From IMG/VR virus record IMGVR_UViG_3300032116_000449, positions 1 through 42,240 of that record: DNA of 42,240 bases. The stretch is one strand, 5' to 3'. Under the pieces are notes generated by a model, which was not told where the DNA came from, made no database searches, and was given only the letters and a program-made list of their open reading frames with translations. The DNA is from a virus. Made by a program: the position numbers and the translations under genes. Shown here in pieces: positions 3,164 to 42,240 of this stretch. Position 1 is the stretch's first letter. Each line of letters starts with the position of its first letter.

Positions 3164-3793
3164 CTAGACGCCGAATCCGGCGCGGGAGACGCCGTTCATT
3201 TCCGGCATCCCGCCGCCACCGCCCATGCCCGCCATCGAGCCGCCCGCGCTGCCGAGTAGCCCGATCAGGCTCAGAATCGACTCGCCGCGCCCCGGCTTCT
3301 TGTAGCCGCCCATCTGGGGCGCGGCCACGGTGCCATCCCGCACGAAGTCCGTCGCCGCCGGGACATCGCTCTTCGTGAGCAGGGCCATAAGCGCCTGCCG
3401 CTGCATCTCCGCGCCGCCCTGCCGCGCCCCCGCGTTCAGCAGCGCCGAGGGGTCAATCCCGCCCGACACCTGCCCCATGCGGATACCGGACGGCGGCGTG
3501 ATCTTCGCGCTCTGCATGTTCTGGATGAGTGAGCCGAGGAGGGCCTGCCTCATCCGCACGTTCGGGGCCTGCATCCCGAGCTGCGCCCGGTTCAGCGTGG
3601 CCTGTTCCTGCTGGCCGAGCAGGTTGTTGCGAGCGTTCTGCTGAATGCCGAACTGCGAGAGGGCCTGCTGATTCTGCGTCTGGGCGAAGTTGTTCTGATT
3701 CGCCCGTTCCGCCGCCGCACCCTTGCCCGCGCCGCCCGCGATCTTGCCGATCAGTCCAGCGCCCGCCGCGATTGCCAACAGTGGAAGTGCCAT
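3164..3793 (-). CDS. Small virion/ejection-type protein
   Basis: 209 residues. The N-terminus (about 1-22) is hydrophobic and Gly/Ala-rich and could insert in a membrane. A Gln/Asn-rich helical middle and a Gly/Met-rich C-terminus follow. Similar small proteins with a hydrophobic start sit next to the ejection proteins of short-tailed phages. It lies in the middle of the late operon with about 10-bp gaps on each side and is surely co-transcribed with its neighbours. The function is inferred only from position and composition. Confidence 0.6.
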   Translation of the reverse strand: MALPLLAIAAGAGLIGKIAGGAGKGAAAERANQNNFAQTQNQQALSQFGIQQNARNNLLGQQEQATLNRAQLGMQAPNVRMRQALLGSLIQNMQSAKITPPSGIRMGQVSGGIDPSALLNAGARQGGAEMQRQALMALLTKSDVPAATDFVRDGTVAAPQMGGYKKPGRGESILSLIGLLGSAGGSMAGMGGGGGMPEMNGVSRAGFGV

Positions 3794-15197: not shown

Positions 15198-17215
15198 TGC
15201 ACCGCTCCCGCCATGCCCGCGCCGGGCAGCATCTCGGTCTGGTTGGCCTGATGCTTGTTCAGGGGTTCCGCTTCGGGCTGCATCCCGCCGTGCTCGGTGT
15301 TCTGCGCCTGCTCGGCCTGCGCCTGTGCCTGTGCCACAAGCTGCATCTGCGCGGCGACCATCTGCGCCTGCTGGAGCGCCTGCGGGCTGATCTGGATGCC
15401 GCCCTTGGCGAGCACTTCGAGCACGATGGCGAACTGCGGCGAGGCGGGGTTCAGATCCTCGCCCTTGAACGCAAACGACGGCGTGGTCGGCGGCGGCGAG
15501 GGCGGCTGCGGCTGCTTCACGAACTGCGCCGGGTCCGCGCCGATCTTCCGCGCCGTGCGACTGAGCAAATACTGCTCGTTCACCAGCGGGTCTTTGCGGA
15601 AGAACTGATACTCGTCAATCGCCTGCTTCTTGTCCCACGCCGCATCGAGCTGCAACGTCGAATCCGGCTTCGCGTTGTAGGCGAAGCGGCCCTGAATCGC
15701 CGTCTTGTCCCACGACTGGAGCGCCCGCGCCCCGTCAGGGCCGACGACTTCGACGTAATCCGGTTCGTCAGCAAAGAGCTGAATCAGCGCGCCGAGCTTC
15801 TGCACGCCCGCCACGAACCAGCGCGCCACCATGACCTGTTCGCGCTTCATGCGCGTCTGGGTGGCCGACTGCTGGATGCTCGCTTCCGTGGCCGTCTGCT
15901 TGCCCTTGGCCGAGACGCCCTGCTGGTTCGAGCCCATCGCCCAGACTTCCTGAATGTCTCGGTCGATGTAGTCGTTGAACGTGAAGTTCTCGCGGGGGAA
16001 GCTGGCGCGGCGAATCTCGCCCATCGCCGCCTGTGCCGTCCCGAAGCCCGGAATCGGCACGAAGTCCTGAATGTCCCCCGAGGCGATCTTCTGCACCTGA
16101 TCGACGGAATACTGCGCGGGGTCGTAGCCGACAATCGGCGCGGTGCGCTTGCGCTGCGTCACCATGTCCGTGCGGCCCTTGCCCAGCTCGCTCACGAGCC
16201 CCCGCGACATGCCGACATCCGACACCGGCACCGCCTGATCGCTCACATACCGCAGCGTCAGGATGTGGATCGGGTTCCCGCGCATCCCGCCGACCAGCCG
16301 CCCGTTCTGGACGGTCTGATACGGCGACGGCCGGGCCACCGCAGGGGCGTCCATGCCATCCAGCCAGACGATCTGGCCGTAGAGGTCGCCGTTCACGACG
16401 TCCTCGTGATAGCGGCTCATCTGATACCAGATTTCGTAGCCGCTGACCTTCTCGCCCCCGGACGCTTCGATCTGGAGGTCACCCTTGATCCGCAGATCCT
16501 CGTCGCTCTTGGCGGGCTTGAGCTGGTCTTTCTCGACGCCATACGTGCGAGCGGCGAGCGCGAGGTCGGTTTCAAACCGGAACCCGAGCCACGGGGCCTT
16601 GTCGAAGTCCGCGCCGTGGAAGTCCACCGGCACGAGCAGCGACTTGATCGGAATCCGCTCCCAGAAGTAGCGTTCGCGAACGATGTTCGGGACCGGCACC
16701 TGGGTCATGGCCGGCTGGCCCGTGATCGGGTCCACGATCGGCTGACCCATCGGGTCCATCACCGGCTGATCGACCATCGATTCGCCGTCCTGCTCGACTT
16801 CGTAGCCGATCTTCGACGCGCCGATGCCCGCCGGGCACAGCACATCGAACAGCACTTCGTCCATCAGCGCCCCGGCGTTGATGTCATCGGGGCCGAGCTT
16901 GGCGTTGAGGACCGCTTGGAACAGCGGAATCGCCGCTTCCACGCCCGGCTGCTTGGCCGTCAGCGTGACTTCGGGCACCTGGAAGAACAGCAGCGCCTTT
17001 TTCTGTTCGACGTTGCTGTAGTCCTTCGGGACGACGACCGTATCGGCCAGCGGCTCGCCGTCGAGCGTCTGCCCGAGATACGCCTTCGTGTTGTTGTCCC
17101 ACTCGCGCTTCTGGGCGAGGTTCGCCCACCACGCTTTCGAGCGGTCGGCTTCCTTCTTCCAGAACTCGAACGAGCCCGGCCCGTCTTTCGGGAGGGCGAA
17201 GGGGGTATCGGCCAC
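15194..17215 (-). CDS. Portal protein
   Basis: 673 residues, the large protein between terminase and scaffold. The N-terminal half holds the expected mix of helices and a beta wing. The central part contains helical segments with DIQDFVPIPGFGTAQAA (about 380-400) and a long helix with QQGVSAKGKQTATEASIQQ (about 425-445), a pattern typical of portal proteins of short-tailed phages. The C-terminal 100 residues are a Gln/Ala-rich barrel-like helix (about 600-650). It would form the dodecameric ring through which DNA is packaged and ejected. The start is a GTG at 17215. Confidence 0.85.
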   Translation of the reverse strand: MADTPFALPKDGPGSFEFWKKEADRSKAWWANLAQKREWDNNTKAYLGQTLDGEPLADTVVVPKDYSNVEQKKALLFFQVPEVTLTAKQPGVEAAIPLFQAVLNAKLGPDDINAGALMDEVLFDVLCPAGIGASKIGYEVEQDGESMVDQPVMDPMGQPIVDPITGQPAMTQVPVPNIVRERYFWERIPIKSLLVPVDFHGADFDKAPWLGFRFETDLALAARTYGVEKDQLKPAKSDEDLRIKGDLQIEASGGEKVSGYEIWYQMSRYHEDVVNGDLYGQIVWLDGMDAPAVARPSPYQTVQNGRLVGGMRGNPIHILTLRYVSDQAVPVSDVGMSRGLVSELGKGRTDMVTQRKRTAPIVGYDPAQYSVDQVQKIASGDIQDFVPIPGFGTAQAAMGEIRRASFPRENFTFNDYIDRDIQEVWAMGSNQQGVSAKGKQTATEASIQQSATQTRMKREQVMVARWFVAGVQKLGALIQLFADEPDYVEVVGPDGARALQSWDKTAIQGRFAYNAKPDSTLQLDAAWDKKQAIDEYQFFRKDPLVNEQYLLSRTARKIGADPAQFVKQPQPPSPPPTTPSFAFKGEDLNPASPQFAIVLEVLAKGGIQISPQALQQAQMVAAQMQLVAQAQAQAEQAQNTEHGGMQPEAEPLNKHQANQTEMLPGAGMAGAVQ

Positions 17216-22567: not shown

Positions 22568-22762
22568 TCACCACGACCGCAACACCACTTGGTGTCCGCA
22601 TCGTGGGCAGTTGATCCACTCGCACCCATCAGCCCCGCCCGTGTAGTCGGTGCCGTCTCGGCGCTGCATGTCTACCGGCGCGTATTCGAGACGGGCGGCA
22701 CAGTGGCGGCACGTCGCCTGCTTCACCGCTTCGGGCGCCTCTCCGACGACCTTGACCGCCAT
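22568..22762 (-). CDS. Small zinc-ribbon protein
   Basis: 64 residues from ATG 22762, supported by a GGAAGGAG ribosome site. CRHC (about 18-21) and CPRC (about 52-55) make a typical two-knuckle zinc ribbon, and the second knuckle is followed by GHQVV. It directly follows the mosaic gene. It may bind nucleic acid; no family is identified. Confidence 0.65.
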   Translation of the reverse strand: MAVKVVGEAPEAVKQATCRHCAARLEYAPVDMQRRDGTDYTGGADGCEWINCPRCGHQVVLRSW

Positions 22763-22766
22763 GTCC

Positions 22767-24038
22767 CTACGCTCCTTCCCGTCGCCGCCAGATGAGGGGC
22801 TGGCCGTTGCGCTCGACAGCAGCAGCCCACTCAGGCATCGGGCCGCTGGCGGTGGTGCCTCTCGCGTCTGGAGCCTCGGGCGGCACGTTGTGCAACAGCA
22901 GCAGGCGCCCATCGACGGCCGTGACCGTCCATCGGTTGCCGAGCTTGCTGATGACCACGTCCCCGACCTGCACCGCCGGCATCGGCTCCCCCACCTGGAC
23001 GGCGGGCGGGGCGGCGGACTTTCCGAGCGCGCACTTCCACCGTTCGCCCAGACCGTCCGGGCCTCGACATGTGCCGAGACAGGTGCAATCGCGGCGGGCA
23101 TCAGCGGGCGGCGCGGCGAGACGCTTGGCCTGCTCCTGATGCGCAGGGCACATGACGGGCGGCATGTCGTAGCCCTTGCAGTGCTTGATGCACTCCCATG
23201 CAACCGCCGCGATGGCCTGAACGTCCGTCTCCTCGGCGGGCGGCGCGGCGGGCGCGCACAAGTGCCAACCCTCGGCATCGCAGTCAGCCCGTGGCGCGTG
23301 CTGCATTTCGCGCAACGCCTCGGCGGGCGGCGCGGCGGGTGGGGCGGGCGTCCCACGAAGCACCGACGACGTGACGCCGTGTCGCTCGCAGATGTCCAGA
23401 ATCCGGCTAAGCGCCTGTTCTTTGCGCTCGATCATCCGCTCTGGCGTCTGAGGCGTGGCCTGATGCCCGAAGGCCAGTCCACGACGTGCCGACATCGCAA
23501 TGTCGTCGAGCGCCACCAGCGCGGGCGGTGCCCCGGCGTCTGCGGGGGGCGCGGCCTTCAGCCGCTCAATCTCCTCGCGCTGCCGGTTGATGACGTCGAG
23601 CGCCTTGGCGTACTCGCGGTCGAGCGCCGTCGTGGCGCGTGGTCCGTCGAGCGTGTCTGCGGGGGGCGCGGCCACGCAATCCACCACCACGGGACCACAC
23701 GCGGCAGACCCCTCCTCGTCGGCATCGTGCAGCCAGTCCTTCCCGCCACCCGTGTAGAGGCGCACGGAATCGAACGACTGCCCACAGGACGCACACCGCA
23801 AGCGATAGCGCGTGAGCCCGTCCGGGGCGTCTGCGGGGGGCGCGGCGCGCAGGGCGGCGATGACTTCGCGGATCGCTACATCGTCACGGTGCGCCTGTGG
23901 ACTACGCTCGCACGTCGCGCAGTCTTCATCAGCAGCGCCGCTCTTGTAGCCGCTGCGCCGCACGTACTCCCCGCAGGTGTTGGGGCGCGCATCGTCCAGC
24001 TTCTCGATCATCGCGTCTCTCGTCATCGGGTCAGCCAC
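22767..24038 (-). CDS. Mosaic modular protein with repeated AAPPAD/E linkers
   Basis: 423 residues made of short unrelated-looking modules joined by the same hexapeptide. The linker AAPPAD, AAPPAE or AAPPAV occurs seven times. Modules include a Cys-rich helical start, a zinc-ribbon segment (CASCGQSF, with further Cys), a short coiled coil (REEIERLK), a Cys/His module (CIKHCKGYDMPPVMCPAH), a CTCLGTC module and a beta C-terminal domain (VQVGDVVISKLGNRWTVT). Most modules carry Cys/His sets able to bind metal. It resembles, in general style, the Ea22/Ead-like mosaic proteins of other phages. The function is unknown; each module may have come from a different small gene. Confidence 0.7.
   Translation of the reverse strand: MADPMTRDAMIEKLDDARPNTCGEYVRRSGYKSGAADEDCATCERSPQAHRDDVAIREVIAALRAAPPADAPDGLTRYRLRCASCGQSFDSVRLYTGGGKDWLHDADEEGSAACGPVVVDCVAAPPADTLDGPRATTALDREYAKALDVINRQREEIERLKAAPPADAGAPPALVALDDIAMSARRGLAFGHQATPQTPERMIERKEQALSRILDICERHGVTSSVLRGTPAPPAAPPAEALREMQHAPRADCDAEGWHLCAPAAPPAEETDVQAIAAVAWECIKHCKGYDMPPVMCPAHQEQAKRLAAPPADARRDCTCLGTCRGPDGLGERWKCALGKSAAPPAVQVGEPMPAVQVGDVVISKLGNRWTVTAVDGRLLLLHNVPPEAPDARGTTASGPMPEWAAAVERNGQPLIWRRREGA
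22998..23846 (-). repeat. Seven in-frame copies of an 18-bp GC-rich linker
   Basis: Copies lie at 22998-23015, 23100-23117, 23232-23249, 23319-23336, 23538-23555, 23655-23672 and 23829-23846. Plus-strand GTCTGCGGGGGGCGCGGC is identical at 23538, 23655 and 23829; CTCGGCGGGCGGCGCGGC is identical at 23232 and 23319. The other two are variants. All spacings (102, 132, 87, 219, 117 and 174 bp) are multiples of three, so each copy encodes the same peptide. Confidence 0.9.
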
Positions 24039-24495
24039 GATCTGTCTCCTTGGGCGCGTCAGGCAGGGGCATCCAGTGGGTCAGTCTGGGCGCGTCTCCG
24101 CTGCGCCATCCGTCGCCCGCGTAGCGGTAGCATTCATGCGTAGGCGACCAATAGACAGCGCATGTCTCGTTGTTCCACGTCAGACCGACGAAGGCCGTGC
24201 CAGTCTTCGTCGCCGTCTCTATCGGTTGCCACGTCCCGCACGTCCGGCGCAGGGCGTCCGCCCCGGCGAGGCAGGCGCGGAGGGCGTCCAGAGCCACGAC
24301 AAGAGCCGCGTGATCGTGCCGGTTGGACGCGAGAGCCTGAGCGAACACCGCCGCCGTCTCGGCCGCGTCCTCCTCTGACCGATTGCCCTCACGCCGCATC
24401 CAGTGGGAATCCGTGCGGAATTGGGCATCCAGCAGCGGCAGCATGCGCCGTTCAATTCTTTCTGCGGCTTTCCGCAGCGTCTCGTGGTCGCTCAT
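24031..24495 (-). CDS. DUF551-like phage protein
   Basis: 154 residues from ATG 24495. The C-terminal half carries TWQPIETATKTGTAF (about 89-103) and ends RLTHWMPLPDAP (about 138-149), the opening and closing pattern of DUF551 domains common in phage early regions. The N-terminal half is helical. Its start overlaps the previous stop (ATGA) and its end overlaps the mosaic gene by 8 bp. DUF551 proteins often sit with mosaic Ea22-type genes, as here. The role is unknown. Confidence 0.65.
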   Translation of the reverse strand: MSDHETLRKAAERIERRMLPLLDAQFRTDSHWMRREGNRSEEDAAETAAVFAQALASNRHDHAALVVALDALRACLAGADALRRTCGTWQPIETATKTGTAFVGLTWNNETCAVYWSPTHECYRYAGDGWRSGDAPRLTHWMPLPDAPKETDRG

Positions 24496-36121: not shown

Positions 36122-36197
36122 GCCGCAGTAGCTCAGTTGGTAGAGCACCTGATTCGTAATCAGGGGGTCGCCGGTTCAAGTCCGGCCTGCGGCTCCA
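36122..36197 (+). tRNA. tRNA-Thr (anticodon CGT)
   Basis: A complete 76-base cloverleaf. The acceptor arms are GCCGCAG and CTGCGGC, the D stem GCTC/GAGC, the anticodon stem CCTGA/TCAGG around the loop TTCGTAA (anticodon CGT at 36155-36157), and the T stem GCCGG/CCGGC with TTCAAGT. CCA is encoded at 36195-36197. It reads ACG codons, frequent in GC-rich genes. It is on the plus strand in a 99-bp gap between two late minus-strand genes. Confidence 0.97.
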
Positions 36198-40803: not shown

Positions 40804-41642
40804 CACTTCACCCCAATCGACCGCTCCACGGCGGCGCGCAGCGGCAGGTTCTCCAGCCCGGTCATCCCTAGCACTGGCCGGTCTTTCCAGGTGAACGCCA
40901 TCATCGCGGCGTAGCGCGGACGCGCCAGCACCTGCGCATACGCCGCGATCATTGATTCCGTCAGCGGCGCGTAGCCTTCCTGCGCGAAATACTGCGGAAT
41001 CAGGATGAGCGGGTGCGTCGTGGACTGCTCGCTATACGCCAGCGGGCCGAGCACGAACGACTGGAAGTCGCCACCCTTCGGCGCATACGGGTCGAGCGCC
41101 ACATAGTCGGTATGCGCCGGGACGGGGCGGAAGCCCGCGCCGGGCGGTCCCGCAATCGTCGTGATCCAGATCACCGGCAGGCCGAGCACCGCCTTGGCGG
41201 CGGCGTGCTGCTTGCCGAGCCAGTCATGGATGATGGCGGTCCCGTCGAGGTTGTTCGGCACCAGCCCGTAGTGCGAGAAGGCCCCGTGCAGCCACTGCTC
41301 ATACCACTCCTCGCCCACGTTGAACGCGATCACGTAGGGGAGCAGGCCGGTCGCCGCCAGTCGCGCCTTGACACGCTCGGCGTGCGGGCCGATGGGCGTG
41401 GCAGGATGCTCGTGGTGGCCCATGCTGAGCACCCACAGGAAGCCCCGCGCCCGGCTCATCGCCGCTGCCTCACGGAAGCGGTCATCGGACACCGTATCCG
41501 TGATGGTGCCGAAGGACGCCCACGCGGGCGGATTGGTGCCGGGATCGAACAGCCCGACAGGCTTCTGCGCCTCGGCCACCCCAGCCAGAAGAAGGAGACT
41601 AACGCTTACCCCCGCAAGCGTGATACGCATGGCGCGAAGCAT
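40803..41642 (-). CDS. Secreted glycoside-hydrolase-like protein
   Basis: 279 residues from 41642, or 275 from the more typical signal start at 41630. The N-terminus is a signal peptide (LAGVSVSLLLLAGVAEAQ). The rest looks like a TIM-barrel hydrolase, with FLWVLSMGHHEHP (about 68-80), FNVGEEWYEQWLHG (about 106-119, with acidic residues) and YVALDPYAPKGGDF (about 180-193). A carbohydrate-active role in the envelope or outside the cell is likely but the substrate is unknown. The endolysin copy at 41606-42124 overlaps its start. Confidence 0.65.
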   Translation of the reverse strand: MLRAMRITLAGVSVSLLLLAGVAEAQKPVGLFDPGTNPPAWASFGTITDTVSDDRFREAAAMSRARGFLWVLSMGHHEHPATPIGPHAERVKARLAATGLLPYVIAFNVGEEWYEQWLHGAFSHYGLVPNNLDGTAIIHDWLGKQHAAAKAVLGLPVIWITTIAGPPGAGFRPVPAHTDYVALDPYAPKGGDFQSFVLGPLAYSEQSTTHPLILIPQYFAQEGYAPLTESMIAAYAQVLARPRYAAMMAFTWKDRPVLGMTGLENLPLRAAVERSIGVK

Positions 41643-42124
41643 AGCACAAAAGGCGCTAACCGCTTACCGCTTTCCATCATGACGGCCAGCCGCTCCGCTC
41701 TGGCCCCCACCTGGGACGCCCACAGGGACTCGCGCATCCCCTGCGCCGCCGCCGCGTAATCCCCGCGCCGTATCGCCGCAAGCGTGCGGACAAACCCGCG
41801 CAGCCGGGGCCAGCCGAGGTTGAAACACATATTCGCCAGCACGTGCCGCCGCACCGGGTCCAGCCGGTCCCACCACGGGATGCCCCGGTTCATATCGTCA
41901 ATGGCAATGTCGATGTCGTTCTGGAGCAGATACCGGATTTCGTCTGGCGACAGGCCGCGATCTTCGATGTTGCGCCCAATGCCGGCGGTCAGCTTGCCTT
42001 TCCATTTCGGCGTGCAGGCACACTCGCGCAGCGGCTTCCCGCAGCAGTCCCAATACGGGAACGGGCGTACGCCCTCGTCGCGCTCCAGGTCGGCCACGAG
42101 GTGCGCTCGGTCGGCGGCGGTCAT
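41606..42124 (-). CDS. GH24 endolysin, copy 2 (Cys-rich insert, stop lost)
   Basis: 172 residues. It has the same catalytic residues as copy 1 (Glu17, Asp26, Thr46), but 14 residues with four Cys (Cys27, Cys28, Cys35, Cys37) are inserted between Asp26 and Thr46. The codon that ends copy 1 is changed by a single base (c to a at 41658), so the frame runs on for 17 residues into the start of the secreted-protein gene. Outside this, 42-225 of copy 1 and its partner are identical. It looks like an allelic form of the lysis enzyme. Confidence 0.85.
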   Translation of the reverse strand: MTAADRAHLVADLERDEGVRPFPYWDCCGKPLRECACTPKWKGKLTAGIGRNIEDRGLSPDEIRYLLQNDIDIAIDDMNRGIPWWDRLDPVRRHVLANMCFNLGWPRLRGFVRTLAAIRRGDYAAAAQGMRESLWASQVGARAERLAVMMESGKRLAPFVLCFAPCVSRLRG

Positions 42125-42240
42125 CGACTGTCCAGCTTCCTGTCGATCTTGTCGAGCCGCCGCATGATCTCGTCGAAGTGATTGCTTTCGCGTTCGACGG
42201 CCACGCCAAGTTCCCGCTCCGTGGTTGTTCTCGCTGTGAA
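42121..42240 (-). CDS. Holin-like gene, 3' part only (window edge)
   Basis: The last 39 codons and stop of the holin-like gene, identical to 462-581. The gene is cut by the window end. It precedes endolysin copy 2 exactly as the full gene precedes copy 1. Confidence 0.85.
   Translation of the reverse strand, partial: FTARTTTERELGVAVERESNHFDEIMRRLDKIDRKLDSR

Follow-up and report, generated by a model that had tools for sequence, protein, structure and literature searches.

We found that one gene of a virus contains seven in-frame linkers of 18 bp, near-identical in DNA and encoding AAPPA(D/E/V). Our data support the view that the conservation of these linkers extends to their DNA and is not confined to the peptide, and that they are located at module borders. 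The gene lies in a 42,240-base IMG/VR virus record with a G+C content of 67%, the whole of which we call the window. On balance we consider it probable that this mosaic gene is an early or accessory gene assembled in frame from small modules, and that its linkers are sites of module gain, loss and exchange by recombination. The gene, its neighbours, its modules (M0 to M7) and its linkers are as follows.

24031..24480, minus strand: upstream neighbour gene, 149 aa, with C-terminal DUF551 (Pfam PF04448, 22.4 bits, cut-off 22)
22767..24038, minus strand: mosaic gene, 423 aa, GTG start, TAG stop, a single open frame
23847..24038, minus strand: M0, helical, with a CGEY..DCATCERS..H Cys/His motif (sequence; no relative found)
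23829..23846, minus strand: linker 1, AAPPAD, GCCGCGCCCCCCGCAGAC
23673..23828, minus strand: M1, CASC...C...C, strands in the model (sequence and low-confidence model)
23655..23672, minus strand: linker 2, AAPPAD, GCCGCGCCCCCCGCAGAC, identical to linker 1
23556..23654, minus strand: M2, a single long helix of coiled-coil type, DREYAKALDVINRQREEIERLK (sequence and low-confidence model)
23538..23555, minus strand: linker 3, AAPPAD, GCCGCGCCCCCCGCAGAC, identical to linker 1
23337..23537, minus strand: M3, two helices (low-confidence model)
23319..23336, minus strand: linker 4, AAPPAE, GCCGCGCCGCCCGCCGAG
23250..23318, minus strand: M4, short Cys pair CDAEGWHLC (sequence)
23232..23249, minus strand: linker 5, AAPPAE, GCCGCGCCGCCCGCCGAG, identical to linker 4 within a 22-bp exact tract
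23118..23231, minus strand: M5, helical piece with Cys/His, WECIKHCK...CPAHQ (sequence and low-confidence model)
23100..23117, minus strand: linker 6, AAPPAD, GCCGCGCCGCCCGCTGAT, ending ..GCTGAT
23016..23099, minus strand: M6, portable knuckle CTCxGxCRGxxGLxxxWxCAL (in seven other viral contigs)
22998..23015, minus strand: linker 7, AAPPAV, GCCGCCCCGCCCGCCGTC
22770..22997, minus strand: M7, C-terminal beta-type domain (low-confidence model)
22568..22762, minus strand: downstream neighbour gene, a 64-aa zinc ribbon (phrog_2834, E 4.7e-15)

The reading frame of the mosaic gene has the best codon fit among the six frames. The sequence AAGGAG, a strong Shine-Dalgarno, is present at 24046-24051, 7 nt 5' of the GTG, and the stop of the upstream gene overlaps the start. 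Together with the homology of M6 in the same frame, these features indicate that the frame is real. Codon usage in the gene is weaker than in the structural genes, and a long antisense ORF overlaps it. The gene belongs to a series of small accessory genes that lies upstream of terL and on the same strand. Farther along lie a DUF1064/Holliday junction resolvase-type gene, an HNH endonuclease, a PolB-type exonuclease, a methyltransferase and a repressor. None of the genes scanned was recognisable as an annealase. A tRNA-Thr(cgt) is found at 36122-36197 on the plus strand.

The original prediction described seven near-identical units, three of them and a further pair identical to the base, and this was confirmed. 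Linkers 1-3 match each other exactly over 18 bp, linkers 4-5 do so over 22 bp, and linkers 6 and 7 deviate by a few bases; similarity is greatest between neighbours (1-3, then 4-5, then 6 and 7). Leaving aside the duplicated contig ends, these tracts of 18-22 bp are the window's only exact same-strand repeats of at least 18 bp. The prediction also pointed to spacings in multiples of three, which is true but adds no separate evidence since it is automatic for a peptide repeated in one ORF. The starts of successive copies are separated by 87-219 bp, the sequence in between is unrelated, and the gene is not a tandem repeat or VNTR made of head-to-tail copies of one unit. A degenerate linker pattern matched 11 times in the window, where 1.7 matches are expected; 7 of the 11 lie inside the mosaic gene.

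We then asked how alike the linker codons are given the peptide. Identical codons were found in 72 of 105 comparisons, whereas the codon usage of the gene itself predicts 32.9 (P=5e-5). Four identical 15-mer pairs occur among the linkers. The codon usage of the gene predicts 0.07 such pairs (P=1e-5), and when a set of window genes supplies the codon usage, the prediction is 0.34 (P=0.002). The linkers are therefore short DNA conserved at the junctions of unrelated modules, like boundary sequences.

The module types named in the original prediction held up in part. The Cys knuckle M6 is established by homology, but the coiled coil and the beta domain appear only in a single-sequence fold of low confidence (pLDDT 44). 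M3 opens with GAPPAL, which resembles a decayed linker (APPAL at 23517-23531), and closes with PAPP beside linker 4. The similarity of M1 to the neighbouring zinc ribbon was not significant (P=0.07). No match of the protein to Pfam Ead_Ea22 was found at E up to 1, and DUF551 is absent from the mosaic gene and present in the overlapping upstream gene.

M6 was found in seven other phage contigs, each time in an otherwise unrelated protein and without AAPPA linkers. It is placed at the C-terminus in L010, L011 and L099, at or near the N-terminus in L102 and L108, and internally in L012 and L106. The conserved stretch runs from just past linker 6 to just short of linker 7, that is, M6 is cut in other phages where the linkers cut it in the mosaic gene. 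The mosaic gene thus contains a fragment common to otherwise unrelated proteins, as in phage domain mosaics. Among 698 sampled bacterial genomes M6 was absent save for one weak match. Scanning genomes for the M6 pattern returned, at most, a single plausible partial relative, which is a fragment at a contig end in a betaproteobacterial MAG (L017); the other six matches were apparently due to chance.

Searches of cultured phages, plasmids and IMG/VR with the whole mosaic protein returned nothing. The exact pattern of the linker plus two bases was found in 0 IMG/VR contigs, and these searches returned no homologue with AAPPA linkers and other modules. We sought the same locus in related phages through relatives of TerL and of the exonuclease; the closest contigs (L002, L003 and L020) do not span it. 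Most of 30 contigs with linker pairs encode ordinary Ala-Pro-rich proteins, the exception being L119.

A search of all fetched contigs for dispersed short exact repeats revealed further cases of the linker-joined layout; because repeats were what the search looked for, these cases establish the recurrence of the layout but not its frequency. Three unrelated phage contigs (L007, L108 and L119) have mosaic genes or gene clusters with their own, different, DNA-identical linkers. In L108, itself a carrier of M6, CTCGTCAGCGGCACGCCC (LVSGTP) is common to three adjacent genes and stands between unrelated pieces, with 18 of 18 codons identical against 4.8 expected. In L119 four copies of GCNCTCGACGCC(G/A)CCCCGCCCGCCGTG (ALDA(A/T)PPAV) occur in adjacent reading frames together with repeated gene ends (47/50 codons identical, 18.4 expected). 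L119 joints occur between genes as well as inside them. The same contig carries three copies of CCCGCCTCGGAGACACCCGATGACTGAC at positions 3317, 3634 and 4397, and at the first two of these, small genes terminate with ARLGDTR and a stop codon, after which comes a start that reads MTD.

The third contig, L007, is a TerL relative (36% identity) and encodes a mosaic gene of 616 aa at the corresponding place upstream of terL. Its linkers are identical or nearly so in DNA and are of three kinds: APVLPP-type, four copies (28/30 codons identical, 10.2 expected); EAPHDAA, two copies (7/7, 3.0 expected); and AARAATS, two copies (7/7, 2.2 expected). Across all four phages the linker codon tests gave P from 5e-5 to 0.002. 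Two modules of L007 could be traced elsewhere. Rhodobacter phage RcBaka gp69 (96 aa, residues 8-95, E 1.8e-11) corresponds to L007 residues 453-540, with linkers at 447 and 542. The DUF551 of the window's upstream neighbour corresponds to L007 residues 197-259 (38% identical), with linkers at 188 and 252; DUF551 is thus a linker-bounded module in L007 and part of a separate gene in the window. From terL on, L007 and its sibling L008 are 75-84% identical in DNA, and upstream, where the L007 mosaic gene sits, nothing in common was detectable.

Further repeats were also observed. In L036, at 15256-15965, adjacent genes have identical joint segments of 27-42 bp (MDDLKPCPFCG, AWNARTTPPGYALV and AAIKALTE) and unrelated interiors. 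Several of the contigs L061-L085 repeat two segments in short succession: GGAGGCCAAGCCATGAGCG, which is start-like, and a coiled-coil one that encodes EIERLRA. Genes from the DUF551 region of six cultured phages have Ala-Pro spacers in some cases and no comparable in-gene linker repeats.

Genes of DUF551/Ea22 type in E. coli offered a well-sampled test. An Ead gene from a Salmonella phage had only three matches in E. coli and was set aside. The DUF551 gene of an E. coli phage had matches in 2690 of 5426 E. coli genomes, with only one place covering at least 80% of the query. Many of the matches are short near-identical segments with recurring ends, at 85-122, 233-278 and 419-458, which encode ARIALASLEAEP, VTPDGWISCSERMP and THWMPLPEPPQE, respectively. 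Nine of the E. coli genes were compared in detail and have different modules between such joints. Two joints are conserved in DNA: 180/215 codons were identical at joint A (70.3 expected) and 138/142 at joint D (63.4 expected). For joint B, DNA conservation was not significant (P=0.084).

Tracts common to two E. coli genes run between these joints. The pair L185 and L186 has 479 bp at 100% identity, from PAPVVPEE to WISCSERMP, joint to joint, with no matching sequence outside. The pair L179 and L184 matches at 99% over 1-125, ending at ALASLEAEP. All 22 of the 22 listed long-tract ends lie inside joints, a descriptive count in that the joints were defined on the same genes and the pairs are not independent. 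With the joints fixed beforehand, eight further E. coli genes gave 4 of 9 tract ends inside joints against 1.7 expected (P=0.048). The remaining five ends fall on joint D or no more than about 15 bp from it, and in most of these cases the joint has one residue changed.

The recurrence in L007, L108 and L119 and the joint-to-joint tracts of E. coli support by analogy the idea that the linker is kept as a recombination joint. This part of the original prediction is sustained by DNA-level conservation, by the position at module borders, by the layout in three more contigs and by exchange at conserved joints in E. coli, but no exchange partner for the mosaic gene was found in IMG/VR. We propose that small independent modules, several of them Cys-containing, together with coiled-coil and helical pieces, would be joined in frame. 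The linkers would act as short DNA joints: recombination between short identical sequences would take place there and would add, remove or exchange modules. Every such joint would encode a flexible Ala-Pro spacer, so that recombination inside it keeps the frame and holds two folded pieces apart. Recombination at the linkers may well have built this particular mosaic gene. By its likeness to Ea22, the protein could be a host-interaction (host takeover) or a lysis/lysogeny accessory factor. Tracts of 18-22 bp are short for RecA-type recombination. This length counts against the proposed joints, as do the lack of a recognised annealase, the closer likeness of neighbouring linkers, the failure to find a second phage with the AAPPAD linkers, the DUF551-region genes of six cultured phages that have no comparable linker repeats, and the second set of E. 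coli genes, in which only 4 of 9 tract ends lay inside the fixed joints.

The observation that neighbouring linkers are most alike would also be expected if tandem duplication, slippage or gene conversion had copied the linker, alone or together with a module, inside the gene, with the modules then diverging or being replaced and the linker left as a by-product rather than an exchange joint. Identical linker DNA would equally result from duplication or gene conversion, the doubled linkers PAPPAAPPAE and AAPPADAGAPPA resemble slippage, and no carrier of the linker was found outside. We nevertheless regard such local copying as rather unlikely. The flanks of the linkers are unrelated, and modules of different types would have had to diverge completely while the linker stayed identical. 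Moreover, the E. coli and L007 modules have outside homologues that are bounded by joints.

Selection might instead act on the protein only, with Ala-Pro favoured for flexibility and the DNA identity reflecting codon preference. Ala-Pro spacers without DNA repeats do exist in mosaic phage proteins such as EBPR podovirus 2 gp46 and Klebsiella phage ZC2 gp06. This explanation is weakened by the codon test, in that identity exceeded codon usage in four of the four phages tested, and by the recurrence of the L108 and L119 linkers across adjacent genes; we give it little credence. The repetition of identical DNA in one region also raised the idea that the 18-mer is a small mobile or regulatory element, such as a protein-binding site or an insertion element, read in frame by chance. 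This is very improbable because all seven copies lie at module borders of one gene, the other matches in the window are few, imperfect and near the chance number, and unrelated sequences play the same role in other phages. Coincidence or a misread frame in GC-rich DNA, which the antisense ORF might suggest, has a negligible chance of being correct given the codon fit, the ribosome-binding site and the overlap with the upstream gene, and the M6 homology in effect refutes it. The use of short DNA joints in building such genes, with an encoded spacer that separates the modules, is the simplest account. The linker looks like a real module-joining device since other phages have linkers of their own and the swapped pieces in E. 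coli are bounded by such linkers. More broadly, and only tentatively, we propose that a short DNA linker particular to each lineage, and reused both within and between adjacent early genes, serves many phages as a frame-safe module joint.

Ead/Ea22 and EaA/DUF551 are early proteins of lambdoid phages, and ea22 genes are mosaic (PMC10834534). Like the mosaic gene, they are early accessory genes of swapped portable domains, with a coiled coil and a variable C-terminal domain, and DUF551 adjoins the mosaic gene in the window and is fused in L007. The mosaic protein differs from them in its lack of an Ead_Ea22 or DUF551 match, its approximately eight small modules and its single linker used seven times. 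Short conserved boundary sequences have been discussed as recombination sites between phage modules (PMC3029335). The linkers resemble these as short conserved DNA where unrelated modules meet. Boundary sequences, however, are classically between genes and common to several phages, whereas the linker is intragenic, repeated and apparently private to one phage. A study of domain mosaicism in phage proteins considered fragments of at least 50 aa, was agnostic on mechanism and does not use the word "linker" in its main text (PMC10684548). Non-homologous proteins likewise share M6, which is shorter than the 50 aa of that study. The intragenic, phage-specific, many-times-reused linker adds a new form to the phage mosaicism and boundary sequences already known.

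It is an old question whether phage mosaicism arises from short conserved boundaries or from random illegitimate recombination. Genes with their own repeated joints, together with E. coli prophage genes that have matches in about half of 5,426 genomes and whose tract ends fall at such joints, make this question directly countable. The joints also delimit many uncharacterised small phage domains, for example the M6 knuckle.

The ends of the window contig, 1-581 and 41618-42240, overlap; each carries an allele of a lysozyme gene, and the two alleles are identical in their flanks but diverged in the centre. Either the genome is circular and the sample contained both alleles, or the segment is duplicated. 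One of the two lysozyme alleles carries a Cys-rich insertion (WDCCGKPLRECACTPKWKG).
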